Source: a bacterium (lineage in GTDB: Bacteria > Actinomycetota > Acidimicrobiia > Spongiisociales > ZC4RG35). From it: a stretch of DNA of 64,000 nt. Numbering within the stretch: the stretch's first letter is position 1; each line of letters starts with the position of its first letter. This document shows, piece after piece, positions 2,148 through 41,916 of the stretch. Under the pieces are notes generated by a model that was given only the letters and a program-made list of their open reading frames with translations, was not told the DNA's origin and did not search any database. A program made the translations under genes and the position numbers. The stretch lies in the NCBI GenBank assembly GCA_024638655.1, contig JAHEJW010000007.1, positions 13,706 through 77,705 on the forward strand, given 5' to 3'.

Positions 2148-2822
2148 TCATTCATCGGGCCTCTCGTAGTCCGGATACTTCGAGAGGTCGCCTATCCGGG
2201 CGGACCACGGACTCTCGTCGTTCCGAAACGAACGCCAGGCCCCCAAGGCTTCGCTGTGACTTCTCCACCAGTAGATGACGTTGGCGAGGACGGCGTATCC
2301 GACTTCGGCGGGTTCGCCGAGAACCAGGAACCACGGGATGAGCCCGATGGGCCAGGTCTCGATGCCTATGAATGCGCTCCCCACAACGAAACCGAACGCC
2401 GCAAAGACCGCGATGGAAGCCAGGGCAGACCATGGATCGATCACCAGCAGCCCGCCCAGGAGTGGTGAGATCCCGAAGCCGCCCACGAACCGGTGATAGA
2501 GCGGGTAGACGTGTCCGAGAAGAGCCCCGGCAGCAACAAATACCTGCACGGCGCTGTCAGGGAATAGCAGGGCGGCAACCAGGGTGGGCACGAAGGCCTT
2601 GGCGATGTCGATCCCTCCCGCTCTGAGGCCTCCCTGGGCCCCGGCTCTCGCCTGAAGCGACGACGCGCTGACACCGCGATTGACAACCGCTGTTCCCGTC
2701 CCGTCGAGTATCACTCTCGTCTTCGAGAGATCTTCGCCCTTGACCAATTCGCGGCCGATGATCCGGGCTCCGGACAGGGAGCCGCACAGATAACCGAGGA
2801 GAACTGACAGTAGGAAGCTCAT
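2148..2822 (-). CDS. PlsY-like glycerol-3-phosphate acyltransferase family membrane protein
   Basis: This 224-residue polytopic membrane protein resembles PlsY, which acylates glycerol-3-phosphate with acyl-phosphate in the first step of phospholipid synthesis. Visible signatures are GYLCGSLSGARIIGR at the N terminus (compare the PlsY GSIPxxxxxGR motif), a DIAKA stretch near residue 73, and GHVYPLYHRFVGGFG near residue 102 (compare GHxxPxxxxFxGGKG). The usual GGKG reads GGFG and the first motif is altered, so it is a divergent member and may use another substrate. It is divergent from the hupE-like gene with only about 60 bases between starts. Confidence 0.72.
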   Translation of the reverse strand: MSFLLSVLLGYLCGSLSGARIIGRELVKGEDLSKTRVILDGTGTAVVNRGVSASSLQARAGAQGGLRAGGIDIAKAFVPTLVAALLFPDSAVQVFVAAGALLGHVYPLYHRFVGGFGISPLLGGLLVIDPWSALASIAVFAAFGFVVGSAFIGIETWPIGLIPWFLVLGEPAEVGYAVLANVIYWWRSHSEALGAWRSFRNDESPWSARIGDLSKYPDYERPDE

Positions 2823-2885
2823 AGGCCGCCGACTTCGACCAGAATGACCGCTTTCAGTGGTTTTCTGCTGCGCAAGGAACTGAAC

Positions 2886-3560
2886 ATGTCTCGATGGGAC
2901 TCTATGGAGGTTGACCGCGAGGTCGACGAGGATGCTCGATCGAGCCCCCAGTATCTCCTAAGCAGGCTGTTGGTCATGGTCTGCTTCTTCTCATGGGCTA
3001 TGGCCCTGTCACTACCAGCGATGGCCCACGAGGGTCAGGTCATCCGGTTCGGGTCGTTTCTTGGCGGTCTTACCCACCCGGTCCTCGGGTTGGATCACTT
3101 CCTCGCCATGGTCTCGGTCGGAATCGTGAGTGCGTTCATCGGGGGTCGGGCAATATGGACCGTCCCTGCGACCTTCGTGGGGGCCATGGCTCTCGGGGGG
3201 TGGATCGGCAGCACCTCTCCTGAGATCTTCGCCGGTTTTGTCGAATGGACTATCGCTGCCTCCGTGATGCTCCTCGGCGGCGTGATCCTCCTCGATCGGC
3301 GTCTCAGGCTCCCAATTGCCATGTCTGCAGTGGCGTTCTTCGGTCTTTCGCATGGGTATGCACACGGATCGGAGATTCCTGAAATCGCTCGTCCACTCGT
3401 GTACGCCGGTGGTTTTCTTCTCGGAACGGCGCTGATTCATCTCTTGGGTGTTCTGATCGGCGATATGGCCCGCCGTTATCCTCGAGGAAGACCCCTCTTG
3501 AGAGGGGTAGGGGGCGTCTTCGTCGTGGCGGGAGCGCTGTTCCTGTTTGGTGGGTTATGA
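2886..3560 (+). CDS. HupE/UreJ family membrane protein
   Basis: The protein (224 residues from this start) has an extended N terminus, a hydrophobic signal-like segment ending AMAHEG, and about six membrane helices. The segment HPVLGLDHFLAMVSVG is the HupE/UreJ signature. Members are inner-membrane proteins linked to nickel or cobalt uptake for hydrogenase or urease. I chose ATG 2886 because AAGGA lies seven bases upstream; an in-frame ATG at 2844 lacks such a site. No urease or hydrogenase genes are in the window. The stop overlaps the next gene by four bases, indicating co-transcription. Confidence 0.88.
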   Translation: MSRWDSMEVDREVDEDARSSPQYLLSRLLVMVCFFSWAMALSLPAMAHEGQVIRFGSFLGGLTHPVLGLDHFLAMVSVGIVSAFIGGRAIWTVPATFVGAMALGGWIGSTSPEIFAGFVEWTIAASVMLLGGVILLDRRLRLPIAMSAVAFFGLSHGYAHGSEIPEIARPLVYAGGFLLGTALIHLLGVLIGDMARRYPRGRPLLRGVGGVFVVAGALFLFGGL

Positions 3561-4210
3561 GCACGACGATGGCGAGCAGATCGAGCGGGAGTGTCACGGC
3601 GCCAAACGGTCAGCCCGTGAATCGTAGGAAGGTCCTTCTCTGGGAGGCCGGGGCATTCGCTTTCATCATGCTCGCCGGTTCGGTTCTTCATTTCGCATAC
3701 GAGTTGTCGGGATTCTCGACTGTCGCCGCCGTCTTCGGCTCGGTCAATGAGAGCACCTTCGAGCATCTGAAACTCTTCTTCTGGCCCGCTCTCGTCTTCG
3801 CCCTGGTTCAACACGCCTACATGCGACAAGAGGCGAACAACTACTGGTGGGGCAAGGGTCTGGCGATGCTCGTCACTCCACTCGGTGTGATTCTGTCCTT
3901 CTACTTCTACCTCGGAATTCTCCTCCCGATTACCGGTCGTGGCTTTCTCGCCGCTGACATCGGCACCGGCGCCTTCGGAGTTCTCCTGGGGAATGTCGTC
4001 TCATACCGCATCCTGACTTCTCCTGACATGGGGCGGTCCCGGCGGTTGGCTGGACTGACGGTCATCGGCCTCCTCGGCGTTGCGATGGCAACTTCGGCCT
4101 GGCTGACCCCGCGATTCTTCCTGTACGAGAACTTCTATGGATATGAGTACAGCGGCGGCTACGGGATTCTGGACGATTACACGCCTTATCTGGTCTTCCC
4201 CGATCGATGA
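3557..4210 (+). CDS. DUF6512-like polytopic membrane protein
   Basis: The 217-residue protein has about five to six hydrophobic helices and the motif SVNESTFEHLKLFFWP at residues about 62-77, which I associate with the uncharacterised DUF6512 membrane family. An N-terminal soluble stretch of about 25 residues rich in Ser/Arg precedes the first helix. It overlaps the HupE-like gene upstream and the phosphotransferase gene downstream by four bases each, so the three are probably translated together. No function is known to me; the tight linkage to HupE may mean a shared transport or metal-related role, which is inference only. Confidence 0.7.
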   Translation: MSTTMASRSSGSVTAPNGQPVNRRKVLLWEAGAFAFIMLAGSVLHFAYELSGFSTVAAVFGSVNESTFEHLKLFFWPALVFALVQHAYMRQEANNYWWGKGLAMLVTPLGVILSFYFYLGILLPITGRGFLAADIGTGAFGVLLGNVVSYRILTSPDMGRSRRLAGLTVIGLLGVAMATSAWLTPRFFLYENFYGYEYSGGYGILDDYTPYLVFPDR

Positions 4211-6417
4211 GGACCCGTCTCTCTAGACGCCGAGAGATCCAGGTCGTCGGCTGCGCCGGCCTGGACATCGGTGGTAAGGCGCGCAACCTCATTTGGCTCG
4301 ACCGAGCCGGCGCCCGAATCCCCCCGACATGGGTGATCTGCGGCTCACCGGAGCTCACGGAACTCAGTCCCGCAGTGCTCAGGTACGCGGTCAGGTCTTC
4401 ATCTCCGGATGAAGACAACCTGAAGAGTGCCCACGCCGGCGAGTTCTTGACTCTCCTCGACGTCGAGCCAGGCGAAGTCGCCGATGCCGTGCGGCACGTG
4501 ATGGGTTCTACAGGTAATGGCAATGCCGTGGTCATCCAACAGATGATCGATGCAGTCGTTTCCGGTGTTGCCTTCTCGAGGGATCCGGTCACTGGCCTCT
4601 CCGACGTCGTAGTCGAGGCAATCCGAGGCCGGGGCGACCAACTGCTTTCCGGCGGGGCAAACCCGTTGCGATGGGTCAACAGGAATGGAGCCTTCGTGGA
4701 GGCACCCGGAACTGCCGACGATCTCGAGGAGGTCATCTCAACGGTTGTCCTGGAGGTGAAGAGACTGGGACGCAAGTATGGGCGACCAGCCGACCTCGAA
4801 TGGGTCTGGGATGGGCAGGACGTGTGGTGGGTGCAGATTCGACCTATCACGGCCATCGAGAATGTGCCGATCTTTTCGCGTCGGATTTCGCGCGATGTGA
4901 TGCCGGGGATGATCAAGCCGCTGGTTTGGTCCGTGAACGTGCCCATGGTCAACACCGCCTGGGTCCGTTTGATCACCGAAGCCATCGGGCCCAACGACAT
5001 ACGACCAGAGCAGTTGGCCGCCTCCTACGCCTATCGCTCCTATTTCGACATGCGCGTCTTCGGCGACATCTTCGAGCGTCTCGGAATGCCGCGGGACTCT
5101 TTGGAGAACCTGCTCGGCCTGCCTGGCGACAGGGGGCGGATGAGACCGGGTTTGGGCTCCCTGGTCGGGCTCCCGAGGCTCCTCGCGTTGTCCTGGAGGT
5201 TGCATCGAGGGACTGACGAGATGTCAGGACAACGAGGGGAGTTGCATAGGCGGTTCATCGAGCTCTCGCAGGCCCGATTGTCGGATCTGGCCGACAGCGA
5301 GCTGGTCGAGCATCTTCGATACGCGGAGAAGCTCGGTGTGGAGGCGGCCTATCTGAACATCGTCATCCCACTTCAGGCCAACCTTTACACCGCGTTGCTC
5401 AGGAGACGCCTGCAACGGTGGGCGGGGCTGGATCTCCAGGACTTGGATCCTCCGCCGAAAGGCGACTGGGACGTCGGTCCGGCTTTGGCCCAGCTTCGAG
5501 AGGCTTTGAGTCGGGTGCCGGCCAAAGACTTGGAGCGGGCCGTAGGAGGCGAGGTCACGCGTCTCGACGAGACCGCGTTGAGCCTGCTTGACCGTTTTCT
5601 GGACCGCTTCGGCCATCTCAGTGAGAGTGTCAACGACATCTCAGTGCCGAGATGGCGGGAGCAGCCATCCTCAGTGCTGCGCCTGGCACTCGCCACCGGC
5701 CCCACGTCCACGGGCCGGACGCGCTCGTGGGCAGAGGTGGAGGGCTCGGTGAGGCGGATCAAGCGGTTGCGATTCCGACGGTTGAGACGAAGAACCGAAG
5801 ACCTGCTCATCCTGCGAGAAGCCGTTGGATCTACCTTCACCCTCGGGTACGGCTTGCTGCGACCGGGTTACCTCGAGGTGGGGCGCCGGCTGCAGGCGAA
5901 GGGCACCATCGACAGGGCTGAAGATGTCTTCTTCATCGGCCAGCAGCCGGCAATCGACTCACTGATCAGCTCAGAGCCCAACGGCTTGCAGGAGCAGGTG
6001 GCGAATGTCAAGCGCGAAATTAAGGAAGTCGCCGACCTGGTCATGCCCGACACCATCGTTGGTGATCATTGGATTCCGGTGTCAGGGAATGTCAAGGATC
6101 GTCTCCAGGGTGTCGGAACGAGCCGGGGTCGCTACCGCGGCATGGCCCGCTATCTCAGTTCCCTCGCCGAAGCGGCTTCGCTCGAACCCGGAGATGTTCT
6201 CGTCATCGAGCGATCCGACGTTGCCTGGACGCCGCTCTTCTCCAAGGCGGGCGCCGTTATAACCGAAGCGGGAGGCCTGTTGGCCCACTCATCCATCACT
6301 GCTCGGGAGATGGGGCTCCCCTGCGTTTCGTCGGTGGCCGGAGCCCGTCGACTCGACGGGGAAACAGTGCTCGTCGATGGGTCGACCGGGGAAGTCTTCC
6401 GTGAGAGCCCCAACTGA
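4207..6417 (+). CDS. PEP-synthase / rifampicin-phosphotransferase-like dikinase
   Basis: The 736-residue protein joins a PPDK-type ATP-grasp N-terminal region to a C-terminal swivelling phosphohistidine domain. ATP-grasp hallmarks are GLDIGGKARNL near the N terminus, AVRSSSPDED at about residues 60-69, and a distal WVWDGQDVWWVQIRPIT at about 200-216. The C-terminal GGLLAHSSITAREMGLPC (about residues 692-709) contains the phospho-accepting His. There is no PEP/pyruvate TIM-barrel after it, so the layout matches rifampicin phosphotransferase (ATP domain, middle substrate domain, His domain) more than true PEP synthase. Such enzymes use ATP to phosphorylate a small molecule via His. The ATP-grasp part is compact, with the early substrate loops shortened. 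The substrate is unknown. The start overlaps the upstream stop (ATGA). Confidence 0.85.
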   Translation: MRTRLSRRREIQVVGCAGLDIGGKARNLIWLDRAGARIPPTWVICGSPELTELSPAVLRYAVRSSSPDEDNLKSAHAGEFLTLLDVEPGEVADAVRHVMGSTGNGNAVVIQQMIDAVVSGVAFSRDPVTGLSDVVVEAIRGRGDQLLSGGANPLRWVNRNGAFVEAPGTADDLEEVISTVVLEVKRLGRKYGRPADLEWVWDGQDVWWVQIRPITAIENVPIFSRRISRDVMPGMIKPLVWSVNVPMVNTAWVRLITEAIGPNDIRPEQLAASYAYRSYFDMRVFGDIFERLGMPRDSLENLLGLPGDRGRMRPGLGSLVGLPRLLALSWRLHRGTDEMSGQRGELHRRFIELSQARLSDLADSELVEHLRYAEKLGVEAAYLNIVIPLQANLYTALLRRRLQRWAGLDLQDLDPPPKGDWDVGPALAQLREALSRVPAKDLERAVGGEVTRLDETALSLLDRFLDRFGHLSESVNDISVPRWREQPSSVLRLALATGPTSTGRTRSWAEVEGSVRRIKRLRFRRLRRRTEDLLILREAVGSTFTLGYGLLRPGYLEVGRRLQAKGTIDRAEDVFFIGQQPAIDSLISSEPNGLQEQVANVKREIKEVADLVMPDTIVGDHWIPVSGNVKDRLQGVGTSRGRYRGMARYLSSLAEAASLEPGDVLVIERSDVAWTPLFSKAGAVITEAGGLLAHSSITAREMGLPCVSSVAGARRLDGETVLVDGSTGEVFRESPN

Positions 6418-6418
6418 G

Positions 6419-7156
6419 TCACTCCCAACGGAAGAACCGAACGGCCAGCAGCGATGCGAGGAGAACGGTTGCGATTGCGATCAGCCAGGAGTTTCCCGGG
6501 TCCAGGTCCAGCCATCCGTCTTGCATGATTTCGATCGTGTGACGCAACGGGGTCCACTCACCGATCGTTCCCAGCGTCCCCGTCAGCACTTCCGGTGGTG
6601 GGCCGGCACCGCCGATCATCAGCATCACGAACCAGAGCATCACGCCGAGAGCTTGGGCTGCCCTGGATGATGGCAACACGGCACCAAGGAGCACACCGAG
6701 CGATGCGAAGACGAGACCGCTGACGAAAAAGCCCAGCAGCACCATCGGTACGGAATTGGCCGCGACGACATCGTGCACCGGAATGCCGACCAATACCAGC
6801 AGGACTGCAGAAACCGCTCCTATCACCAGGGTGACGATGATCTGTGACGTCGCCACGATCGTCGTGGGAAGGCCCGAAGCCCGATAGCGCTTGAGCACTC
6901 CCAACTCACGGTTGGTCGCCAGGTGAGTGGGCAGGCTGATGAGGCCAACCGATGCGACCACGAGAGCGATGTAAGCGGGGATGTAGTAGTCCATCGCTCC
7001 TACATTTCGATATACGTCCGGATCCGACTCATTCCCGAACACACCACCCATCACGAAAAGGATCGTGAACGGGAGTGCGAACGCAAACAGCACCGTGAGC
7101 GGCTCCCGGAGGAACAGCTTCAGCTCGAGCCATGTCATCTTCGCAAGAGTTCTCAT
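6419..7156 (-). CDS. ABC-2 type transporter permease
   Basis: The 245-residue protein has six predicted membrane helices and the ABC-2 export permease layout, with an N-terminal cytoplasmic entry (TWLELKLFLREPLTVLFAFALP) followed by a helix, a loop, and GVLKRYRASGLPT between helices two and three. The four-base overlap with the ATPase gene upstream shows the two are translated as a unit. Together they form an exporter for lipids, drugs or polysaccharide; the substrate cannot be told. It is convergent with the phosphotransferase gene, with one base between the stops. Confidence 0.9.
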   Translation of the reverse strand: MRTLAKMTWLELKLFLREPLTVLFAFALPFTILFVMGGVFGNESDPDVYRNVGAMDYYIPAYIALVVASVGLISLPTHLATNRELGVLKRYRASGLPTTIVATSQIIVTLVIGAVSAVLLVLVGIPVHDVVAANSVPMVLLGFFVSGLVFASLGVLLGAVLPSSRAAQALGVMLWFVMLMIGGAGPPPEVLTGTLGTIGEWTPLRHTIEIMQDGWLDLDPGNSWLIAIATVLLASLLAVRFFRWE

Positions 7157-8064
7157 CGGGGAGTCTCCGAGTTCGAGGTGAGAAGCAGGAACACGTCTTC
7201 GAGTGTGGCCCGCTCAACCCGCAGGTCCGGCGGCTCGAGGCCGCGACTGACAAGGGCCGCGCCCACGTGGGCCAACACAGGGCCGTCACCGGAGACCTCG
7301 TAGCGGGTGCCATCCTGGATCACGCCCGCCACGTGAGGCACATCGCTCAGCCACTCGAGCCCCGAGGGTGGCCCGGTGAAACGCACTCGCACCTGCCCGG
7401 CATGACGGTCGATGAGGCTCTCCGGCGTCCCCTCGGCCACGATGGTTCCTCCGTTGAAGAGAACCAGTCGATCGCATAGGGTCTCGGCCTCGTCCATGAA
7501 GTGGGTTACCAGGACGACGGTGGTGCCCTGGTCGCGGATCCTCCGGATCAGGTCCCACGCAGTTCGACGCGACGAGGGGTCCAGCCCCGTTGTCATCTCG
7601 TCGAGGAATACGAGCTGGGGGTTGTTGACCAAAGACAAGGCGACGAACAGTCTTTGACGCTGGCCCCCAGAGAGCTCGGAGAATTTGGAATCTCTCTTTT
7701 CGCCGAGCCCCCAACTCTTCAGGAGGTGTTCCCAGGAGCTGCCGCCCTGCTTCAGCGAGGCGAACAGGTCCAAGGCTTCCCAGACCCTTACCCGATCCGG
7801 CAGAGCGGACTCTTGGAGTTGTGATCCGATTAGCTGCCTCAGTTTCAATGCATCTCGCCTCGGATCCAGCCCGAGGACCGATACGTCGCCGCCGTCGATC
7901 GACCGGAGCCCCTGCAGGCACTCGACCGTCGTCGTCTTGCCTGCCCCGTTCGGGCCGAGGATGCCGAAGATCTCGCCCTCTTCGACTTCGAAAGAGACAT
8001 CTTTGACTGCGATCAGGTCTTGATACCTCTTCTCGAGATCATGGACAGAGATTGCCGTAGCCAT
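7153..8064 (-). CDS. ABC transporter ATP-binding protein (drug/lipid exporter type)
   Basis: The protein powers the ABC-2 permease encoded immediately downstream. Walker A is GPNGAGKTT, the signature is LSGGQRQR, and Walker B reads LVFLDEMTTGLDP, with Met where many members have Pro. The C-terminal ending LEDVFLLLT is the usual tail of DrrA/CcmA-type exporters. I placed the start at the ATG giving MATAISVHDLEKRY, which leaves a four-base gap to the MMPL gene; an ATG at 8091 would add nine residues and overlap that gene by 23 bases. Neither start has a clear ribosome-binding site. Confidence 0.92.
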   Translation of the reverse strand: MATAISVHDLEKRYQDLIAVKDVSFEVEEGEIFGILGPNGAGKTTTVECLQGLRSIDGGDVSVLGLDPRRDALKLRQLIGSQLQESALPDRVRVWEALDLFASLKQGGSSWEHLLKSWGLGEKRDSKFSELSGGQRQRLFVALSLVNNPQLVFLDEMTTGLDPSSRRTAWDLIRRIRDQGTTVVLVTHFMDEAETLCDRLVLFNGGTIVAEGTPESLIDRHAGQVRVRFTGPPSGLEWLSDVPHVAGVIQDGTRYEVSGDGPVLAHVGAALVSRGLEPPDLRVERATLEDVFLLLTSNSETPR

Positions 8065-8068
8065 GCCG

Positions 8069-10180
8069 TCAGGAAGGAGCTTCTGTTCCATCCCGGGGCA
8101 ACAGCACCGGGATGATCAACAGGGCCGTTAGGGCAGCCGTCATCATCGAGACCCACATGATCGCCGTCACCTGCTCGTGGATCGCCAGAGGTGAGAACAA
8201 CAGAGCAGATAGGCCGATGGCGATCCCGAGGGCGTTGGCGACGATCGGTCTCCCCGCCCTGTCGATGGCCCGGAACACGTAGCCCGGACCTTCGCGTCTG
8301 GCCAGATCGATCGCGGCCACATAGTGGATCGAGTAGTCGATACCGACCCCGATGACGATGCTCGACGCCACCGCGGTGAGCAAGTTCAACTGGATGCCCG
8401 AGGCCGCGAGGAACGCCAGCAAGGTGGCAACCGTGAGAGCAATTGGCACTAGAGAGACAATGGTTTGTCGCCAACGGCGATAGGCCACAAAGAGCATGAT
8501 CGCCACGAGGCCAAAGGCAACGGCAAGAGATGTGACCTGGGCACTCAACACCAGCCTTGCGATCTCATCCCAGACGATGGGCATGCCGGTCAGCGCGGTA
8601 ACCACATCGGAGTCCGAGGCATAGTCGATCCACTGGCGTAGGTCCGAGGTCGAGAACTCTTCGGGGAGCAGCATGAATCGGAGACCGTCTTCGCTCACCA
8701 AACCGCCGATCGGAGATTCGGTGCTCCCGGACAGAATCGCCTGGGACTGTTCGGGGGGCAGAGCATCGGCCAACGTTGCCGCCGAGATGACTCTCCGCAC
8801 ACCGGGGAGTGCTTCGAGGTCGTCGGTAGCCGCCCGGATCGCAGCAAGTTGTGAGCTATCGCCTCCAGAGTCGAAGGAGAATTCACCCATTAGGGGAGTA
8901 GCGCCACCGAACAGGTCCTCGGTGCGCTCGAAGGCCAGCCTCACCGGATCGTCGCCCTTGTAGAAGAACAGTTGGTCGCTGTCGACATCCAGCCGGGGAA
9001 TGAACACGCCTGCGAAGACCACGAGCAAGAGGGCCAATGCCAGCGCGGGGATCCGCAGGCTCACCATTCTCTTGATCCCATCGATGATCCGGGGTCCGAT
9101 CAGCACCTTTGGCTTCGTATCGGCTGGTCGAAGGTGGCCGATCAAAGCAGGAAGCGAGAAGAAGGAGATCACCCCGGCGAAGCCGATCCCGATCGCCGTG
9201 AACAAACCCAGCTGTCTGATCGGGCCTACATCGGTGGCCAGCAGTGAGAGAAACCCAACCGCGGTCGAGACCGTGGTCAAGATCATCGGAATGCCGACAT
9301 GACGCAATGCGTCGGCGACTCGCTCAACCGGATCCTCGGATCTCGCCTCCTGGAAGTGGGTGACGAAGTGGAGACCGTCAGCGGACCCCATCACGATCAC
9401 GAAGATCGGGACGATCACGGTGAGGAGATCTACTTCACGGCCCAGACCGAAGATGAGGCCGAATGTCCACAGCGAGCCGACTATGGCGGGGAAAATCGAG
9501 AGTGCGGCCAGCCGTCGGTCTCCGATGTTGGCGTAGAAGACCAACAACAGCAGCACTATGACAGCCGGTGGGATCACCAAGAGGAACAGGCTGATCAGGT
9601 CGAGGACCGAGGAGAAGATTATCGGGTTTCCGGACAGGACTATCTCTTCCCCGCGGGTGTCTGCCCATTCCGTCACCTCCTGGGCGGCTTCCAGGGAGGC
9701 TTGTCCTGGGGAGACCATCAGTAGCGCATTGCGACCGTCTCCAGAGAGAAACACATCCGCCAGCGGGTTTTGAGACAGCAGCCGGTCGATGGCGGGAGAC
9801 GGCAGAACGGCCAGTTCCTCAGTCGAGAGCCGGGCGCCGGTGAGGGGGTTGACCTCAGGAACGATCGATGCCACGGTCCCCACATTTTCGAGAGCGGCCA
9901 GTTCGTCCCTCGCGGAGGCGATCAAAGCGATGTCCGTGGGCTCATCGAACGCCTCTCCCGCCGGCAGGCTGATGATGACGTTTATCGGGTCGCTCGTGGA
10001 GTACTTCTCCGTCAGCGCGACGAACTGCCTCCCCACTTCGTTGCTTTCGAGGATCGATCCCGCGATGTCTGCGTTGAATTGCATGCGAAACAGCATTGCC
10101 ACCGCAGTGAGTGTGATGATCGCCGTGACGGCGAGAATCACCCTCGAACGATGGACGATGACGTGAGCGATCCGATCCAT
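8069..10180 (-). CDS. MMPL/RND superfamily transporter
   Basis: The 703-residue protein has the duplicated RND/MMPL plan. A first helix (residues about 12-32) is followed by a large outer loop, five helices containing [21 protein letters not shown], then a second helix-loop-helix repeat with [23 protein letters not shown]. The GSADGLHF and GIDYSIHY segments correspond to the proton-relay helix 4 and 10 positions of the family. These proteins export lipids, hopanoids or drugs using the proton gradient. It precedes the ABC ATPase and permease on the same strand with nearly no gap, so the three may form one export operon. Confidence 0.9.
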
Positions 10181-10311
10181 TTCGGGTCACCCTAAGACCG
10201 GATCAACGCGCATCGGAATCCGCTCGAAATAGGGGAGCAGGCCTCGGATCCTGCTGTCGGAGAGTGGATTGGAGGTGTGGGGGATGGAGAGCATTACCCT
10301 CGCGGATTCAG

Positions 10312-12728
<2,417 letters not shown>

Positions 12729-12732
<4 letters not shown>

Positions 12733-13121
12733 ACGCGGCTCGAATCCTGGCTTCAGCGGGTGTTGATCTGGAGAGCTTGAAGACGGAATTGGGGCCGGTG
12801 AACCCGGAGAACGTCAACGTTTGGCCGGCGGCCCGGTTCATCCGGATGCTCTGGAGGTCGGGGATTCGCGGCATGACTCTCTTCCGGCTGGTGCTCGCCG
12901 ATCCCGATGTCTTAGATGCTGGAGAAGCTCGGCTGGCCCGATTCGTGATCCATGAATTGGTTCACGTGCGTCAATTCGCCGAGCTCGGATACGTTCGCTT
13001 CATGATCAGTTACCTGTTCGAGTACTGGAGAGGACGATTTCGAGGCCTCGACCATCGCGACGCATATCTGGCGATCGGCTCCGAGGTCGAAGCGCGCGAG
13101 GTTGCAGCGAGATACGTCTGA
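12729..13121 (+). CDS. Small HExxH-motif protein, function unknown
   Basis: The 130-residue product starts at a GTG that overlaps the leuS stop, implying translational coupling. Residues about 93-102 read [10 protein letters not shown], which has the HExxH zinc-protease pattern followed by the Q seen in DUF4157-like putative peptidase domains, and a later EVEAREV could supply a third ligand. No signal peptide is visible. I do not recognise a named family. It could be a minimal metallopeptidase-like protein or a degenerate structural relative. Confidence 0.65.
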
Positions 13122-17401: not shown

Positions 17402-18385
17402 GTGGCCCTTCTGATCGTCTCCGGCCCGTCCAATGCCGGTCCCGGCGAACGCGAGCAGATGCTCGATGCAGCCAATCAGCACTTCATGAAGACCAACATG
17501 ACCCGTGAACAGGTCGTCAGGATCGATGTGCCGGGTAGGGGTGGAGGAGAGGCCGGCACAGGTGCGATCAGATCCGAGCTCGAGCCGATGATCCCACTGC
17601 TCCAGTCGGGCTCGCTCTTCGACGAGCCCGAAGGGCTCGAGATCGTCGATGCTCAAAACCTCCAGAAAGCGGAGGTCGATGCCCTTGCCGAGCTTCTCGA
17701 AGACGCCGATCTGATCAAGACCGAAGTGGTCTTGGTCAGCGAGGGATCGCTGGCGAAGCCTCTCGTCGAGGTGGCCAAGGAGCGAGGGAGCACCTTGTCG
17801 GTCAAGAAGATGTGGGAGCGGCAGGCGGCGCAGTGGCTCGACGCCGAGGTCGACAAACGAGAGCTGAAGATCGACAAGGATGCACAGAAAGCGCTCCTGC
17901 AGAGATTCGGGACTGACACGGCCAGCATGGGAAACGCCCTCGATCAGCTTGCCGAGGTACAGGGCAAAGTGACCTCAGAATTGGTCCTGGACTGGTTCAA
18001 GAACCGCCCTGACGAGCCCACATGGCAGATCACAGATGCCATATCGCGGGGAGACGTCGGTTTGGCTCTGCGCAGACTCTCCGACTTCCTGGTGCACGGC
18101 CATCCCTTGGTCTATCTGGCCGCACTGGAGTCCGACCTCAAACGGCGGGCCCTCGCAGCCGCCGCGCCGGACCAGGAGACGTTCAAGGATTGGATGGGCG
18201 GCAAGGGCTCAGACCGCCAGCTGTCCAGGGTTTGGTCGATGCGGGGTCGGGTGAAGGAGTCAGCGCTGCGGAGTGCGCAGGAGGCCCTGGTCAGGGCCGA
18301 TCGCGTGATCAAGACTCTGCCCGAGGAAGCCCATCGTGTGACCCTGGAGCGTCTCACCGTCGCCATGTGTCGCTGGTACGGCTGA
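17402..18385 (+). CDS. holA: DNA polymerase III delta subunit
   Basis: The 327-residue protein matches HolA, the clamp-loader wrench subunit, with the N-terminal LLIVSGPSNAGPGEREQ, a central PLLQSGSLFDEPEGLEIVDA, and a C-terminal collar region with ITDAISRGDVGLALRRLSDFL and HPLVYLAALESDLKRRALA. GTG 17402 is proposed as the start because family members begin just before this strand; an ATG at 17339 would overlap the upstream gene by 50 bases. It ends just before a strong hairpin terminator. The comEA-comEC-holA order is typical of Actinomycetota. Confidence 0.87.
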   Translation: MALLIVSGPSNAGPGEREQMLDAANQHFMKTNMTREQVVRIDVPGRGGGEAGTGAIRSELEPMIPLLQSGSLFDEPEGLEIVDAQNLQKAEVDALAELLEDADLIKTEVVLVSEGSLAKPLVEVAKERGSTLSVKKMWERQAAQWLDAEVDKRELKIDKDAQKALLQRFGTDTASMGNALDQLAEVQGKVTSELVLDWFKNRPDEPTWQITDAISRGDVGLALRRLSDFLVHGHPLVYLAALESDLKRRALAAAAPDQETFKDWMGGKGSDRQLSRVWSMRGRVKESALRSAQEALVRADRVIKTLPEEAHRVTLERLTVAMCRWYG

Positions 18386-18395
18386 GAGCACAGGT

Positions 18396-18432
18396 AGAAG
18401 CCCGGTGCGGAAGAGATACGCACCGGGCTTCT
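18396..18432. terminator. Strong hairpin between holA and a convergent lipoprotein gene
   Basis: A perfect 14-base-pair stem (AGAAGCCCGGTGCG pairing with CGCACCGGGCTTCT) encloses a nine-base loop. It begins 10 bases after the holA stop and ends 20 bases before the stop of the convergent gene. There is no long T-run, so it may act as a two-way actinobacterial-type terminator. Confidence 0.85.
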
Positions 18433-18452
18433 GGTTCGGGGGCCTTTGAGGT

Positions 18453-18824
18453 CTAGCGGAGTCCCGAGGATGGCTCCACGTACTCCTGCTCCGAAGCCTC
18501 GGGCCACATCTGTGGCGCCTCGTATCCGTCGATCCTGAAGGCCTGATTGACGACGGCCGGAAACATCTCCGGAAACTCATAGCCGCGCAGAGCCGAGATG
18601 CTCGGGCTGCCGACTGGAGGAAGCTCGAGGATGAGATTCGAAGGCGCCGGGTTGATGACCGACACGTCCTCGATCGGTCCTCCGCAAGCCGCCAGGATGA
18701 TCCCGGCGACCAGGACTGCCAGCGCTGATCTGCGGAACAAGCCAAGCCCCTCGGCACTCTCTCGCTTGAAGCACTTCCTTCGAGAGGCATCGTGTGCCCT
18801 GACGAGGTTTTCACTCAACAACAT
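18453..18824 (-). CDS. Small lipoprotein
   Basis: The 123-residue protein has a basic N-region (KCFKRES...FRRS), a hydrophobic core LAVLVAGIILAACGG and a lipobox LAAC near residue 47, predicting an outer-face lipoprotein. The mature part of about 75 residues has no family I recognise; it contains YEFPEMFPAV and YEAPQMWPEA, two similar short segments that may be an internal repeat. The long N-region is odd, but the start at 18824 has a strong AAGGAG site; a TTG nearer the hydrophobic core is an alternative. It is divergent from the large regulator and shares its operator-like region. Confidence 0.75.
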   Translation of the reverse strand: MLLSENLVRAHDASRRKCFKRESAEGLGLFRRSALAVLVAGIILAACGGPIEDVSVINPAPSNLILELPPVGSPSISALRGYEFPEMFPAVVNQAFRIDGYEAPQMWPEASEQEYVEPSSGLR

Positions 18825-18885
18825 GTCCGTTCTCCTTCTCTTCGGGTCGCCTTGTTGCGACCGAGAGCCAGAGTCAGGGAGACCG

Positions 18886-18929
18886 GTTCAGGAGTTGCTC
18901 CGATGTTGTTCAGAGGTTGTTCAGGCGGA
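18886..18929 (+). promoter_or_regulatory. 11-bp-periodic direct repeats, PHO-box-like or SARP operator
   Basis: Four consecutive 11-base units begin at 18886, 18897, 18908 and 18919. Three start GTTCAG and the second starts GCTCCG; the first three end in GTT. An inverted TCTGAAC copy is at 18945-18951. One-helix-turn direct repeats of GTTCA are the hallmark of the actinobacterial PhoP PHO box, and SARP activators also bind tandem repeats with 11-base spacing. The site lies between the divergent lipoprotein and SARP-STAND genes. Which regulator binds is inference. Confidence 0.6.
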
Positions 18930-18985
18930 GAATTCGCAGTGCATTCTGAACAAAACCTGAATCCGCTTGACCAACTATCGATGCA

Positions 18986-21900
18986 ATGGTTTCCAACACC
19001 TGGAAGGCTGACAGGCGTAGGGTCGATGTCCCCGTGAACTTCAACGTCCTGGGACCTGTGACGGTCGTTGACGGGAGCGGCCCATTGAACATCGGTGGGC
19101 CCAAGCAGCGCACCGTCCTCGCGATGCTGATCGCCAACTTCGGTCGGCCGGTCTCCAACGACCTGATTGCCGAAGCGGTCTACGGAGAGGACAGTCCGGA
19201 ACGAGCCCGTCGCCGGGTCCAGGTCTATGTCTCCACCCTCAGATCGATCGTCGGCGACGTCATCGCCAAATCGGCGGGAGGTTGGGCGCTATTGGCCGAT
19301 CGTTCCGAGGTGGATGCCCTTCGTTTCGAGGATCTCTACGAGTCTGTTCGAGCCGATTCCGGTTTACCACCCGAGGCAACGGCGAAGGTCTTGAGGGAGG
19401 CTCTTTCCCTCTGGCGGGGCTACCCCTACTCCGATATCGAGTCCCACGGTCATCTCGCTCCGGAGATCTCACGTCTCGCCGAGTTGAGGGTTGCGGTCCA
19501 AGCGGCTCGTATTGAGTCTGATCTTGGATCGGGGCGACATGCCGACTTGATCGGTGAGATCGAAGGCTTGATCTTGGAGCATCCCTATCTGGAGCGACTC
19601 CGTGCCCAGCACATGCTCGCTCTCTATCGAGCGGGCAGACAGCGAGAGGCGCTGCGCTCCTATGAGGAGATGAGGACACTTCTCGTCGATGAGATGGGAG
19701 TCGATCCGACCCCTGAGCTGCAGGAACTAGAGCAACGAATCCTCGAGCAGGACTCCTCGCTGGATCTGACACCCAGGAAGCAGATTCAGAAGAAGGCTGT
19801 CCTTGTGGCCGATCCCGGAGATCCTATCGAGCTGGCTCGCTTGCCTCCTATTGAACGAGAAGAGCTCATCTCGAAGTCGGGTTCGGCCCTGCTGAGAGTG
19901 GTCGGTGAAGACGCACTGCTCCCTGCGGGCACAGCTTCATATGCCGTATTCGACACGGTCGGCGAGGCTGCCGCCGCAGCCGAGAGGGCGACCCTTCTCA
20001 CGGACGGCTCCGCGACGCGGATAGCGATCGACTTCGGGGACGTCGAGGTCTCCGATGGACGCGTGAGCGGTGCTCCCGTGACCAGGGCCTCGGTTCTGGT
20101 CTCTGTGGCTCATCGGGGTCAGGTCCTCCTGTCGGTTGACGCGCAGCGAGCCTTCGTCAGCGGAGAGGAAGGCACCGGGTTGCGTTTCGAGTCTCTTGGC
20201 AGGTTCGACCTCGCTGGGATCCAGGAGCCGACGGCGGTCCATCAGATTCTCATCGGCAATCCGCCCACCTCTTTCCCACCCCTCGATACCGACCGGACAC
20301 CTGTTCCACTTCCCGAGGGAGGTGACCGATCGATGCCCGGCTATGAGCTGAGAGACATCATCGGGCCGGGCTCTGTGGGCACCCTATATCGGGCATATCA
20401 GCCATCGGTAGGGCGGGAAGTGGTGATCGAAGTGATCGCCCGCGCCGAAGCCTCAGATCCCTATTTCATCCGAAACTTCGGAGCCGATGCTCAGCGTCTC
20501 GCTCTCCTCGACCATCCCAATATCAACCCGCTGCTGGACTATTGGAGAGATCCAGATGGTGCCTACCTCGTGTACCGGCACCATCGCGGCGGCCTACTAC
20601 GCCAAAGCTCGGTCGGTGACACCAACCGGCTGATCGAACAAATCGGTAGCGCGCTTGTGCACGCCCACTCCTACGGATTGGTGCACGGGTCTCTACGACC
20701 TGATCGCGTCCTCATGGACGAGTCGGGCAATGGCTATCTGATGGGCTTTCCGCTCGCCGGAATCGCTCCGAAGTCGTCTCCCGAACATGCCGCCTACATC
20801 GCGCCTGAGACCCTCGCTGGCGAGGTAGCGACTGAGGCGACGGATGTGTTCGGTCTCAGCGTTCTCGCTCTGGATCTACGAGAAGGACTGGGAACGAGCG
20901 ATGTGCCCCTGCAGCCCACGTCCCAGGTGATCGCCCGGGCGATGAGCGAAGAGCCTTCTCTCCGATATCGGTCGGTTTCGGCTTTTCTCGATGAGCTCTA
21001 TCCCGGCAACGAGGAGCCCGGCGAGCGCTTCACCGAGACACGTAATCCCTACAAGGGATTGGCAGCATTCCACGAGAGTGACGCCGGGGACTTCTTTGGC
21101 CGTGGCTCCGTGGTCGAAGAGTTGCTGGCGGCGCTGCGCAGGGACTCCTTCTTGGCTCTTGTTGGGCCCTCCGGCATCGGCAAGTCGTCGGTCGTTCGTG
21201 CAGGTCTCATCCCGGGGTTGCGACAGGGAGTAGTCAAGAGCTCCTCTGATTGGGTCATCACCGACATGCTTCCGGGTCCACGGCCTTTCTTGGAGCTGGA
21301 GCGTGCATTGGAGAAGGTGGCCGTAGAACTGCCGCCCGATGTGAGGGAGCGGTTTGCCGAGCGTGATGCCAACGCCCTGGCTGGTTTGGATGGGGTGCTG
21401 CTCCCGGGTTCTGAGCTGCTCGTGGTGATCGATCAGTTCGAGGAGCTGTTCACCATGGCTGACGAAGAGGTTGCGTCAGCCTTCCTCGACCTCCTGGTCA
21501 GTGCAGTACAGCTGAATCAGGTGCGGATCGTGATCACGCTTCGTGCCGACTTCCTCGACCGACCGCTTCTCTATTCAGAGTTCGGTGAGCTGCTTCGGGA
21601 GTCAATGGTCGGATTGCGTTCTCCAAGCCCTGCCGAGCTCAGCGAGGCGATCACGGGCCCGGCGCGCCGAGTTGGAGTGGATGTGGAACCCAGTCTGGTG
21701 GAGAGGTTGGTCTCCGAGGTTCACGACCGTCCTGGTGGGCTGCCTCTCCTCCAATTCGCTCTTGTGGAGTTGTTCGACTCCAGGGAGTCGGATCTACTCA
21801 CCGTTGAGGCCCATGAAAAGGTCGGCGGGGTCGCCGGATCAGTGGCGCGGCGGGCTGAGGCAGTCTACGAAAGCCTCGATGTCGACCAGAGATCGGCCGT

Positions 21901-24751
21901 CAAGCAGTTATTCCTTCGTTTGGTCGCAGTGGCTGATGACGCTACGCCCACTCGAAGACGGGTGAGGCTCGGCGAAGTTGCCGACCTCGAGGCCGAGCCT
22001 TGGATCGAAGCGTTTGCTCGCAACCGGATGCTGGTGTTCGACAACGATCCAGACACGCGAGCCCCAACAGTCGAAGTGGCTCATGAAGCCCTGCTCACAG
22101 AATGGCCCCGTTTGGCCGGTTGGATCGAAGCCGCGCGTGAAGACCTCACGCTCTCCCGAAGACTCGATGAATCGATCACGGACTGGGAGGAGAACGACGA
22201 AGACGACGCCTACCTGCTGACAGCCGGGCGTCTGGCGCAACATCAGGCCTGGACCTCCAATACCAGCCTGATCCTCACCGACCGGGAATCTGACTTTCTA
22301 GAGGCTTCAACGAGTCGCGACCTTGCCCAACGAACCCGGAGGCGGCGACGTCGGAACTTGATCATGGCCGGTTTCGGCGCTGCCGCGTTGATCGCCACTT
22401 TGTTCGGCGTCTCAGCCAATCGGAGCGCCAACGATGCTCGCTCGGAGGCCCTGGCAGCCTCAGCGGTCGCTGCGCTGGAGGTCGATCCTGAGCTCGCTGT
22501 ACTCCTCGGAATCGAAGCGATGGAAGCAAACCCAGATTCAACACCGACGCGAAACGCGCTCAACCAGGCTCTTCAGGCTCACCGGGCCGAGTTCAGGTTG
22601 GTAGGCCCAACAATTGGCTCGATGAGCCCGGACGGGAAATTGCTCGCTGCCTCGACGCAGTTCGTCGCCGGTGTCTGGGATCTCGACGGTTCGACAGACC
22701 AACCACTCTGGGAGTGGAGGGTTTGGGACAATCATGAGATTGGCGACACCTATTTCAGCGATGACAACAGCCTGGTGATCGTGGTCTCCTACGTGTCTCC
22801 TGAGGCAGGTGGGGAATGCTCATGGGATCGATTCACGATGTTCGAAGCGTTGACCGGAGAGCTGGTCAAGGACACCGACTTTGATGATCGGAACATGTAC
22901 TGGGGCGGACCGAGTCAGACCGGTCCGTTTGTTGATATAGCCCGACCGTTCGTGCTGGGGCCTGGCGGTGCTGACGACTGCCGGGCCAATCCCGCCGAAG
23001 GTGAGTTGGTCGCAGCCGATCTCCTGACCGGCGATCTATCCGTCTTGGTTGTGGGCGCCTCGCCCAAGGGCCGCTCTTGGGTCGGAGTTCCGACCCTCAG
23101 CGAAGACGTGACAAGGCTCGCCTGGACCGGAAACAATGGTGGAGGGGTGATCGATCTGGTTACCGGAAACGAGCTCATGCCACTGCCACCCGGACACAGC
23201 TCAGTCAGCCCGGATGGATCCCTCGTCTTGACCGGAAACGACCCTCTTGAGCTTTGGGGCGTGGGGAGCTCGCCTCGGAAGCTTCGGGAGTTCAAAGCAT
23301 CCTTCGGGACTGCATGGTTCAGTTCGTCAGGCTCCATCGTCTACGGCAATACCTATGACGGCCGGGTCCTTGGCTATGACACCTCATTCGGCGATCTCGT
23401 CTTCGAATTGAAGGGTCCAGGTAGTGATGCCAGCAAGGTCCAGATGTCAGACGACGAACGCAAGGTCGCCAGCTCTTCTACGGATGGCATGACCGTATGG
23501 GGAATCGGCGAATCGGTTCAGCCAACCGCGGGCCCTGCTCAGTACTTGCCCAGTTCCGGTGGCGAGCATTCCTTCTTTGTCATCGGAAAGACCTATGTGA
23601 CATCTGAGTATCTGGTGTCATGGAGATTTGTCGTGATCGACGAGCGGGGCTTGTACGAGGACCACCCTTCCGTACCCGGCCATGAGGTGACAGCGGTCTA
23701 CGACATCAACACCGGGGAGGCAGTCAAGACCTATCCAGGCATGTTGCTTGCGGTCTCACCGGATGGGGAGCAAATGGCACTGCAAGCATCTGGTGAGCTC
23801 GTGGAAGCGAAAGAAATCGATTCGACAGCTTCAGACGGTACCTATTTGCCGACTGGAGGCGTGCACATTGTCAATATCGAAACAGGTCAGACTCAAGAGC
23901 TCGAAGGACTCTGCCTGTGGTACGACGGGCCACCTGCGTCACCTGAGAGGTACGTTCCAGATGAATGCGCCAGTTACCCCGAGGAATGGGCAGACCTGGT
24001 CAACCATGCGGTGTTCTCACCGGACGGTGATCGTCTCGCCATGGTTGGGGAAAGCGGTCGCTTCGCCGTATGGGATCTGATGACGGGAAAGATGGAATGG
24101 CATCTCGATAGTCCCGAGGGACTCGAGAGGGCTCTGCTGTTCAACGATGCCAATGTGGCGTTCACGACGGACGGGAGGTTCCTGGTGACAGCGATCTTCA
24201 CCGGCGTACGAGGCAGCGACCAGTCGGGCACAGTGACTGTTCGCCCCGTCGAATCCTTGGATGTCCCCGTAGCCGAGTTCACCACGCTCGTAGGAGGCCC
24301 ATCGAACATCGAATTCACCGCAGATGGCAAGCGCGTCGTATTGAACGACCAGGGTCAGAACTTGTACGTAGTTGACACGAGCCGTTGGGAGATTGTCCGT
24401 ACTCTCAAGGGAGGTCACCAGGCGTCGTTGATCAGCGACATAGCTGTCGATCCGTCGGGGCAATGGGTGGCCACGGCGGGCCGTGATGGCATCTCAGTGG
24501 TATGGGATATCGAATCGGGCGAGGAGGTGCAGCGATTCGACTTCTCGGCGACACCGCTCGGTCTGAGAAACGTGGAGTGGGTCGACGAGGACACACTGCT
24601 GTTGGGGACGCGGTCTTGGGCGGCGCAAATGACGGTCGATCCGGATATCTTGATCGACCACGCCCGCCAGCGCCTCACCCGCTCTTTCACAGAGGCGGAG
24701 TGCGCCACCTACGACATCGACCCCTGTCCGACTCTCGGGGAACTGAGGTGA
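18986..24751 (+). CDS. Giant SARP/BTAD - cyclase-like - pseudokinase - STAND NTPase - WD40 regulator
   Basis: The 1921-residue protein is a multidomain signalling regulator. Residues about 18-260 are an OmpR-type winged helix plus BTAD, as in SARP activators (FNVLGPVTVV, KQRTVLAMLI, then HPYLERLRAQHMLALYRAGR). About 265-430 resemble a nucleotidyl cyclase domain without clear catalytic residues. About 450-690 are a protein-kinase fold with key residues lost: VVIEVI replaces the AxK lysine, HGSLRPDRVL replaces HRDLKPxN, and MGF replaces DFG. About 695-1115 are a STAND-type NTPase starting NPYKGLAAFHESDAGDFFGR, with Walker A GPSGIGKSS and LVVIDQFEELF. A membrane-like helix lies near 1125-1143, and WD40 repeats (SPDGKLLA, FSPDGDRLA, VVWDIESGE) fill about 1200-1915. 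A GTG at 19034 giving MNFNVLGPV is an alternative start. Confidence 0.87.
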   Translation: MVSNTWKADRRRVDVPVNFNVLGPVTVVDGSGPLNIGGPKQRTVLAMLIANFGRPVSNDLIAEAVYGEDSPERARRRVQVYVSTLRSIVGDVIAKSAGGWALLADRSEVDALRFEDLYESVRADSGLPPEATAKVLREALSLWRGYPYSDIESHGHLAPEISRLAELRVAVQAARIESDLGSGRHADLIGEIEGLILEHPYLERLRAQHMLALYRAGRQREALRSYEEMRTLLVDEMGVDPTPELQELEQRILEQDSSLDLTPRKQIQKKAVLVADPGDPIELARLPPIEREELISKSGSALLRVVGEDALLPAGTASYAVFDTVGEAAAAAERATLLTDGSATRIAIDFGDVEVSDGRVSGAPVTRASVLVSVAHRGQVLLSVDAQRAFVSGEEGTGLRFESLGRFDLAGIQEPTAVHQILIGNPPTSFPPLDTDRTPVPLPEGGDRSMPGYELRDIIGPGSVGTLYRAYQPSVGREVVIEVIARAEASDPYFIRNFGADAQRLALLDHPNINPLLDYWRDPDGAYLVYRHHRGGLLRQSSVGDTNRLIEQIGSALVHAHSYGLVHGSLRPDRVLMDESGNGYLMGFPLAGIAPKSSPEHAAYIAPETLAGEVATEATDVFGLSVLALDLREGLGTSDVPLQPTSQVIARAMSEEPSLRYRSVSAFLDELYPGNEEPGERFTETRNPYKGLAAFHESDAGDFFGRGSVVEELLAALRRDSFLALVGPSGIGKSSVVRAGLIPGLRQGVVKSSSDWVITDMLPGPRPFLELERALEKVAVELPPDVRERFAERDANALAGLDGVLLPGSELLVVIDQFEELFTMADEEVASAFLDLLVSAVQLNQVRIVITLRADFLDRPLLYSEFGELLRESMVGLRSPSPAELSEAITGPARRVGVDVEPSLVERLVSEVHDRPGGLPLLQFALVELFDSRESDLLTVEAHEKVGGVAGSVARRAEAVYESLDVDQRSAVKQLFLRLVAVADDATPTRRRVRLGEVADLEAEPWIEAFARNRMLVFDNDPDTRAPTVEVAHEALLTEWPRLAGWIEAAREDLTLSRRLDESITDWEENDEDDAYLLTAGRLAQHQAWTSNTSLILTDRESDFLEASTSRDLAQRTRRRRRRNLIMAGFGAAALIATLFGVSANRSANDARSEALAASAVAALEVDPELAVLLGIEAMEANPDSTPTRNALNQALQAHRAEFRLVGPTIGSMSPDGKLLAASTQFVAGVWDLDGSTDQPLWEWRVWDNHEIGDTYFSDDNSLVIVVSYVSPEAGGECSWDRFTMFEALTGELVKDTDFDDRNMYWGGPSQTGPFVDIARPFVLGPGGADDCRANPAEGELVAADLLTGDLSVLVVGASPKGRSWVGVPTLSEDVTRLAWTGNNGGGVIDLVTGNELMPLPPGHSSVSPDGSLVLTGNDPLELWGVGSSPRKLREFKASFGTAWFSSSGSIVYGNTYDGRVLGYDTSFGDLVFELKGPGSDASKVQMSDDERKVASSSTDGMTVWGIGESVQPTAGPAQYLPSSGGEHSFFVIGKTYVTSEYLVSWRFVVIDERGLYEDHPSVPGHEVTAVYDINTGEAVKTYPGMLLAVSPDGEQMALQASGELVEAKEIDSTASDGTYLPTGGVHIVNIETGQTQELEGLCLWYDGPPASPERYVPDECASYPEEWADLVNHAVFSPDGDRLAMVGESGRFAVWDLMTGKMEWHLDSPEGLERALLFNDANVAFTTDGRFLVTAIFTGVRGSDQSGTVTVRPVESLDVPVAEFTTLVGGPSNIEFTADGKRVVLNDQGQNLYVVDTSRWEIVRTLKGGHQASLISDIAVDPSGQWVATAGRDGISVVWDIESGEEVQRFDFSATPLGLRNVEWVDEDTLLLGTRSWAAQMTVDPDILIDHARQRLTRSFTEAECATYDIDPCPTLGELR

Positions 24752-41127: not shown

Positions 41128-41916
41128 ATGGAACCCGATCTTCGAGGTGAGAGTGTGAGATGGTCGATTGTCGGATGGATAGCCGCCGCAATAGTCGTGG
41201 TAGTCGGAGGCGCATATGCATGGTTCTGGTTCGCCGGAGGCTCGGGTGAGCCGTCGACCGAACTGACGACCCCGACGATCGCTGGAACCGACACCACCCT
41301 CGGCACAACGGCGAGCACTCGATCCACAACCGAAACGACCGTGGGAACGACGACGGGTGCGTCGTCCACCGGTCCCGCCTCCTTTGTGCTCGATTCGACG
41401 CGAAGCCTGGCGAGTTTCGAACTAGACGAAGAGTTGCGGGGCTCCCCTCAGCGTGTCGTCGGAACGACCGACCAGGTTGCCGGCCAGGTGCGTCTCGACA
41501 TAACTGATCTGTCCACGGTCGAGTTCTCCGAGATAGTGATCAACGCCCGCACCTTTCAAACCGACTCGGGCCAGCGGGACCGAGCAATTCGAGGTCCGGT
41601 GATTTTGGACTCGGCAAGCGACGAGTTCGAGTTCATAACGTTTTCGGTCAAATCGGTGGACGGCTTACCCGACGAGGTGGTCCCCGGTGACACTCTCGAG
41701 CTCACCGTCACCGGCGATCTCACAGTAAAAGGCATTACCAACGAAGAGACGTTCGACGTGTCCGCCACGCTCGTCGACCAGGAGAACATCGAAGGTTCGG
41801 CGGGCGCCATCATTTCCAGGGATCGATACGGAATCGGGATACCCAACGTTCCCAGCGTGGCCAATGTGAGTGACGAGGTGGCTCTGATCTTGGAGTTCGT
41901 CCTAACCGCGAGTTGA
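41128..41916 (+). CDS. Membrane-anchored YceI-like domain protein
   Basis: The 262-residue protein has one N-terminal membrane helix (VGWIAAAIVVVVGGAYAWFW), a Thr/Ser-rich linker to about residue 85, and a YceI-like lipocalin domain (SLASFELDEELRG, VAGQVRLDITDLSTVEFSEI, and the final DRYGIGIPNVPSVANVSDE). YceI proteins bind isoprenoid-type lipids in the cell envelope. A GTG three bases upstream is an equal alternative start. The Thr-rich linker resembles that of the HD phosphodiesterase in this window. It overlaps the open frame of dnaG. Confidence 0.88.
   Translation: MEPDLRGESVRWSIVGWIAAAIVVVVGGAYAWFWFAGGSGEPSTELTTPTIAGTDTTLGTTASTRSTTETTVGTTTGASSTGPASFVLDSTRSLASFELDEELRGSPQRVVGTTDQVAGQVRLDITDLSTVEFSEIVINARTFQTDSGQRDRAIRGPVILDSASDEFEFITFSVKSVDGLPDEVVPGDTLELTVTGDLTVKGITNEETFDVSATLVDQENIEGSAGAIISRDRYGIGIPNVPSVANVSDEVALILEFVLTAS

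Follow-up and report, generated by a model that had tools for sequence, protein, structure and literature searches.

How a transcriptional activator could act on DNA when a membrane helix lies between its DNA-binding half and a large C-terminal WD40 half, and what enzyme-like domains in the same chain would contribute, are the questions raised by the gene at positions 18986-24751 (+) of the window, which is the whole 64,000-nucleotide (64-kb) stretch of DNA that was analyzed. The gene is a single unbroken open reading frame (ORF) of 1921 amino acids, in which a SARP domain is followed in order by a cyclase-like domain, a pseudokinase, an nSTAND1 ATPase, a transmembrane helix and a WD40 part. 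A first-pass annotation had described this as an unusual fusion, had taken both inserted domains for sensors and not enzymes, and had suggested that cleavage might be needed for the activator to reach DNA. In the reading that we consider rather probable, the protein would be a CadC/ToxR-like, membrane-tethered SARP activator that is switched by its STAND ATPase and drives its own promoter together with that of a divergently encoded exported protein.

The domain anatomy of the protein can be assigned with high confidence. An AlphaFold2 model of residues 1-690 was confident (mean pLDDT 87.4), and the nearest folds found by Foldseek and VIA-align were AfsR and EmbR for the SARP part and PknI/PknA for the kinase part. 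The SARP domain (residues 15-258; 19028-19759), an OmpR-type winged helix followed by BTAD as in other members of the SARP class, was recognized by Pfam (Trans_reg_C at 39-91, E 1.8e-7; BTAD at 109-253, E 6e-39) and by VIA-align superposition on AfsR in its transcription complex (8k60_I; Z 25.8, r.m.s.d. 2.7, 243 residues aligned) and on EmbR (2ff4_B; Z 24.1, r.m.s.d. 2.0, 244 residues aligned). The protein is nevertheless not an AfsR orthologue, as the match to the NCBIfam AfsR equivalog covers residues 11-266 only and scores 180 bits, the cut-off being 1430. The Hanks-type bilobal fold of the pseudokinase (residues 449-679; 20330-21022) was likewise found by Pfam (Pkinase at 453-632, E 5.7e-16), by alignments and by the structural match to mycobacterial PknI (5m09_B; Z 24.1, r.m.s.d. 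3.3, 225 residues aligned). The nSTAND1 domain (residues 686-1078; 21041-22219) has both the profile of a STAND NTPase (Pfam at 688-1074, E 8.8e-114) and intact motifs, namely the Walker A sequence GPSGIGKSS at 727-735 and a Walker B-like sequence, LLVVIDQFEELF, at 811-822. Pfam WD40 families were matched at about 1670-1880 within the WD40 beta-propeller part (residues about 1164-1921; 22475-24748), and the model of the C-terminal half, which is of moderate confidence (pLDDT 73.9, with low stretches), matched tandem WD40 propellers and Apaf-1 in Foldseek.

The assignment of the class III nucleotide-cyclase-like domain (residues 264-425; 19775-20260) draws on a family profile as well as on the AlphaFold2 model and alignments. 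As a single sequence, this stretch reached only E 0.026 against cyclases in the PDB, and Pfam searched with the protein alone gave no cyclase-domain match. A profile built from 13 aligned family members, six of which match the Pfam family Guanylate_cyc unaided, matched solved class III cyclases with a best E of 1.9e-24, and it is through this profile that the catalytic-domain homology of the fold is recognized. No cyclases were among the matches listed for the 690-residue model; SARP and kinase matches fill that list, so their absence there is uninformative on the cyclase fold. The domain order given in the first-pass annotation is thus borne out by Pfam, AlphaFold2 and the family profile, and the structure prediction that it had called for over residues 265-690 gave a kinase fold within a confident model.

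The VAIK lysine, the HRD aspartate and the DFG aspartate of the kinases and the metal-binding aspartates of the cyclases are the catalytic motifs of the two families. In alignments, the three kinase positions are occupied by Glu482, Ser569 and Gly587, and the protein therefore lacks the triad of an active Hanks-type kinase; the loss of all three residues had been read from the sequence beforehand. The first metal-binding aspartate of the cyclase-like domain is kept as Asp276, the second is replaced by Thr316 and the NR pair reads TR; the two aspartates of an active class III cyclase are thus incomplete, in agreement with the dead cyclase proposed earlier.

The architecture was confirmed, but it also recurs in relatives. 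Sixty near relatives, genome contigs that were scanned and 296 genomes of the class together yielded 93 distinct ORFs with this kinase plus nSTAND or cyclase; DNA was retrieved at selected places (20, 16 and 20) and not for every match. The 93 ORFs comprise 37 kinase-nSTAND, 27 SARP-kinase-nSTAND, 24 SARP-cyclase-kinase-nSTAND (including the present protein), 3 SARP-cyclase-kinase and 2 cyclase-kinase-nSTAND ORFs, and contig ends truncate some members of the last two groups. A match at E 1e-25 or better was obtained in 29 of the 296 class genomes. The named SARP-cyclase-kinase loci belong to Acidimicrobiia or Actinomycetota MAGs, and the SARP-cyclase-kinase-nSTAND and SARP-kinase-nSTAND ORFs are nearly all from Acidimicrobiia, with one SARP-kinase-nSTAND locus (L057) labelled Anaerolinea; the loci without SARP are mostly from Chloroflexota, with one labelled Bacteroidetes. 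No description of a SARP-kinase-STAND-WD40 protein came up among the open-access papers listed, most subscription journals lying outside that search, and the protein appears to be a variant of the large SARP-STAND regulators with an apparently undescribed architecture. The genome that carries the gene has three more SARP-kinase-nSTAND paralogues. In one same-genome paralogue (G000:C25, locus L110), the WD40 part is 43% identical to that of the present protein while its kinase and SARP are no closer to it than those of other members, a possible sign that the ectodomain has been exchanged. Locus L090 contains two tandem SARP-cyclase-kinase-nSTAND genes (626-6208 and 7019-12553) and the apparent start of a third (12642-13029), and L163 likewise contains two such genes.

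Across this family, all three triad residues are present in 36 of the 37 kinase-nSTAND proteins that lack SARP, compared with 33 of the 54 proteins that have it (Fisher p 2.9e-5). The sequences compared are related and hence not independent, the altered row L119 is truncated inside the kinase, and two kinase-intact cyclase-kinase-nSTAND ORFs in which no SARP is visible are omitted. The triad is altered in 21 of the 54 SARP members; the Walker A motif is intact in all 49 assessed, which indicates that the ATPase is retained and that kinase catalysis is dispensable. An nSTAND tree was built from 61 rows, of which 51 have SARP or cyclase and 10 were drawn at random from the 37 kinase-nSTAND proteins. 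On this tree, the kinase state switches at least 10 times when any alteration is counted and at least five times when only rows that have lost two or three triad residues are counted, and a single clade for the 10 latter rows, a group named after the tree had been seen, was rejected (AU p 2.2e-4). As far as can be judged from sequence, loss of catalytic residues is a repeated event in the SARP family. The present protein clusters with both L090 copies, each of which is kinase-altered (support 96, quick tree). The cyclase aspartate pair is complete in 12 of 29 members and incomplete in 17 (for L095, solely through a truncated start), and joint loss of kinase and cyclase residues amounts to three independent pairs only. 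Since relatives often keep the catalytic residues of the kinase or cyclase, the description as sensors and not enzymes fits this copy and some others as a derived state and is not a trait of the whole architecture; many relatives probably retain a working kinase, in the manner of the AfsK-AfsR kinase/SARP pair but within one chain.

The hydrophobic helix at residues 1124-1144 (22355-22417), with six arginines on its N-terminal side, lies between the DNA-binding and WD40 halves, where the first-pass annotation had placed a membrane-like helix near residue 1130. With a Kyte-Doolittle mean of at least 1.6 over 19 residues as the criterion, a hydrophobic stretch after nSTAND was present in all 80 assessable family members (10 ORFs were too short to assess), and the charge bias placed the N-terminus inside in 77 of them. 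Cysteine parity provides evidence on topology that is independent of these predictions. Of the 69 complete proteins with any cysteine beyond the helix, 66 have an even number there and 3 an odd number (two others have none there, and three proteins cut at a contig end were dropped), compared with 16 even and 27 odd counts on the cytosolic side, and 124 of 136 consecutive pairs beyond the helix lie within 60 residues of each other. The present protein has six cysteines after the helix (1278, 1332, 1643, 1661, 1906 and 1914) and none before it. The even counts argue for disulfides outside the cell, and the WD40 part is predicted with good confidence to lie outside the cytoplasmic membrane. The helix, charge bias and cysteine parity observed here would fit a ToxR-like layout of a single transmembrane segment with an external sensor, and an intramolecular disulfide has been described for CadC (excerpts of PMC3096576).

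The intergenic region between the gene and a divergent ORF is 161 bp long and contains four consecutive 11-bp units, GTTCAGGAGTT GCTCCGATGTT GTTCAGAGGTT GTTCAGGCGGA, at 18886-18929 (+), proposed here as a SARP operator, and two more 11-bp-spaced TTCAG units, TTCAGGTTTTGTTCAG, at 18946-18961 (-). The lag-11 score of this upstream array was never reached in 5000 Markov shuffles. The any-lag statistic for it alone was not significant (0.06), so the value of this single array as evidence depends on the prior expectation of an 11-bp spacing: direct repeats at intervals of 11 or 22 bp are what SARPs bind (excerpts of PMC10936776), and the AfsR repeats, CGTT(T/C)ATCGNN (excerpts of PMC10972967), have GTTCA or GTTTA in common with the units found here. 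Furthermore, the spacing recurs in the family. Over 33 upstream regions, lag 11 ranked first of 25 lags (Fisher p 1.1e-7), and it remained first without the present gene (n=32, p 7.5e-6), after thinning (n=23, p 1.7e-4) and in nine loci found later (p 1.1e-4); it ranked third (p 0.19) for 35 kinase-nSTAND genes without SARP and eleventh for 120 other ORFs sampled at random. Individual regions mostly have no clear array (7 of 33 below 0.05), and the repeat sequences differ between members. A promoter and terminator scan of 18380-19000 found nothing, and no clear -10 element at the 8-bp spacing described for SARPs was seen near the array by reading. With up to two mismatches the pattern occurs at 15 places in the genome, compared with 4 for a reversed control, and as the zero- and one-mismatch matches both lie within this one intergenic region, no wider regulon emerged.

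With fair confidence, the array may thus be taken as a candidate operator for the SARP domain. It is unlikely that the array is instead the site of a different OmpR-type regulator, for instance a PhoP homologue, and not of the present protein: overlapping direct repeats are recognized by AfsR and PhoP in Streptomyces (excerpts of PMC10972967), but the confinement of the two best genome matches to this intergenic region speaks against such a regulator, as does an 11-bp signal that is more a feature of SARP genes than of kinase-nSTAND genes lacking SARP and whose sequence differs from member to member.

The divergent ORF at 18453-18824 (-) encodes a lipoprotein-like protein of 123 amino acids (95 amino acids, with an LAAC lipobox, from a likelier start near 18740) and is the proposed co-regulated partner. 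Its codon use resembles that of its neighbours. It has no Pfam match and, without a strong homologue in the 60 relatives, is an orphan; matches at E 0.01 or better in 12 of the 60, possibly counting the copy of its own genome, with a best E other than itself of 4.5e-4, probably reflect signal-peptide similarity. By a crude signal-peptide rule, an exported product is predicted for 17 of the 48 ORFs directly 5' of SARP genes and for 21 of the 238 other ORFs in the same loci (p 1.0e-5), the corresponding figures for kinase-nSTAND genes being 6 of 31 and 37 of 244; the two kinds of gene do not differ significantly in this respect (p 0.10). Eight of the SARP-gene neighbours form one family of about 200 amino acids with a signal peptide, two conserved cysteines, an HExxH motif and a later conserved glutamate (L121:7899-8498, L045:2041-2823, L120:744-1373, L170:1946-2632, L161:2183-2854, L122:4561-5151, L123:5017-5616 and L166:1465-2124). 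These are putatively gluzincin-like; Pfam gave only sub-threshold similarity to Peptidase_M78 (two of three members scanned), and no PDB match was found. The family occurs at 55 places in 24 of the 296 class genomes. Where DNA was fetched, 16 of 30 places adjoin a SARP gene, divergent every time (9 of 23 among non-seeds), and 16 of 30 is a lower bound because the flanking DNA is short at some of the remaining 14. Taken together, a relation of the SARP gene to an exported divergent partner is suggested with modest confidence. At L196, L199, L208 and L210, the SARP gene beside the HExxH partner encodes SARP and then nSTAND without a detected kinase. A second small exported family (L104:1350-1790 and L174:7723-8163, 49% identical, with no Pfam match for the one member scanned) lies beside SARP-kinase-nSTAND genes, and a third exported homologous pair (L158:853-1398 and L099:3043-3549, E 1e-9) adjoins SARP-cyclase-kinase genes.

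If the tether were cut, an outside protease and then intramembrane cleavage would free the SARP-STAND half for DNA. Such a course would suit a putative protease that is exported and encoded next to a membrane-bound activator, and the HExxH gene is indeed divergent from the SARP gene at the 16 loci above. The genome of the present gene has no member of that family at E 1e-6, however, and the partner here is a small lipoprotein; nothing in the analysis shows cleavage, and cleavage is not required for access to DNA, as CadC and ToxR are described as integral membrane winged-helix proteins that activate transcription. We regard cutting of the tether as distinctly unlikely.

For the tethered activator, the course of signalling that we infer from the computed domains, lost residues, intact Walker A motif, helix, cysteine parity, 11-bp repeats and family-wide pattern would begin outside the cytoplasmic membrane, where the WD40 part may sense a ligand or partner. 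The signal would cross the single helix and reach the nSTAND1 ATPase; by its nucleotide switch, this ATPase would lift autoinhibition of, or cluster, the N-terminal SARP domain. While still tethered, this domain would bind the 11-bp array in the divergent promoter and recruit RNA polymerase, and the output would be higher expression of its own gene and of the divergent exported lipoprotein. A comparable restraint is described for AfsR, in which the SARP domain is held by the C-terminal NOD/TPR domains and freed by ATP binding (excerpts of PMC10936776). Hanks-type kinases phosphorylate SARPs in the AfsK-AfsR and PknH-EmbR pairs (excerpts of PMC1262709 and PMC2877116); with the kinase step gone here, signalling should travel as a conformational change across the helix to the STAND switch. 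The loss is easier to understand in view of the small effect that phosphorylation is reported to have on AfsR activation in vitro (excerpts of PMC10936776). The cyclase-like and kinase-like domains would then be one-time enzymes that persist in a structural or allosteric role. That they are instead decaying relics without a role seems quite improbable: both are inactive by sequence in this protein, the catalytic residues have been lost many times on the tree and SARP-nSTAND genes without a detected kinase exist, but the folds are well formed in the model, with kinase blocks mostly at pLDDT 72-97, and the kinase region is 44% identical to that of the kinase-intact L046. The family was chosen through its kinase, so loss of the whole kinase domain could not appear in it.

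PQQ repeats are of the propeller type, EmbR and PknH are two proteins with an FHA domain and no known STAND or WD40 parts, and CadC and ToxR are not known to have a BTAD, ATPase, kinase or cyclase domain. With AfsR/AfsK of Streptomyces coelicolor the present protein shares the SARP fold, a STAND ATPase behind it, a link to a kinase and, as a candidate, an 11-bp direct-repeat site (excerpts of PMC10972967 and PMC10936776), and AfsK has C-terminal PQQ repeats (excerpts of PMC1262709). However, AfsR consists of SARP, NB-ARC and TPR with a separate kinase, whereas here nSTAND1 stands in the place of NB-ARC, the kinase and cyclase are in the chain, the helix and WD40 part replace the TPR, and the kinase is dead. 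EmbR/PknH of Mycobacterium tuberculosis also combines a SARP-type regulator with a Hanks-type kinase (excerpts of PMC1262709 and PMC2877116), and the EmbR fold matches. With CadC and ToxR, compared by architecture only, the shared features would be a cytoplasmic OmpR-type winged helix, a transmembrane helix and an external sensor. The 37 kinase-nSTAND1-TM-WD40 proteins have the same order from the kinase on, but lack the SARP domain and, with one exception, keep the triad.

A wider reading, which is possible but which we hold only tentatively, is that the SARP receptors of Acidimicrobiia form a closed circuit, in which the propeller would read the divergent exported partner (here the lipoprotein, in many relatives a metallopeptidase-like HExxH protein) and expression of that partner would be set by the SARP domain; an AfsK-like kinase in cis would be ancestral and replaced by allostery in several lineages. 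If so, the family would offer a natural series on one scaffold, from signalling driven by phosphorylation to signalling without it. SARPs have mostly been studied as soluble antibiotic regulators with separate kinases, and here they would span the membrane with the kinase in the same chain. The presence of intact and dead kinases within one family makes the role of phosphorylation in AfsR-type regulators testable by comparison and provides a tractable set of bacterial pseudokinases, in which a signalling enzyme may have turned into a structural switch. In addition, the uncharacterized exported HExxH family comes with a regulator attached.

Very improbable is an NLR-like conflict protein in which WD40 detects an invader, STAND oligomerizes and a defence regulon is the output of the SARP half. 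In its favour, STAND and WD40 domains, and also inactive enzyme modules, are described from proposed conflict systems (excerpts of PMC7159879), PADLOC models match the kinase stretch (C3a189 covers kinase plus nSTAND) and Apaf-1 is among the Foldseek WD40 matches. Against it, the WD40 part is predicted to lie outside the cell, there are no defence neighbours (lepA lies downstream by Pfam) and the output is a transcription factor with its own likely operator. The conflict-system link of the first-pass annotation, and an anti-phage link generally, are unsupported: the PADLOC matches of the protein cover the kinase or kinase-plus-nSTAND stretch only, and the near neighbours are housekeeping genes. 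These include holA-like and rpsT-like genes, which we take to be such by reading. Among seven other large ORFs of the window, PADLOC gave only apparent shared-domain matches; an RT_UG29/RTasDnaG-like match at 41913-43709 looks, by reading, like an ordinary primase. The ORF at 52901-54775 (-) has weak PADLOC matches to mad2 and to a kinase stretch (E 6e-8 and 3e-6).
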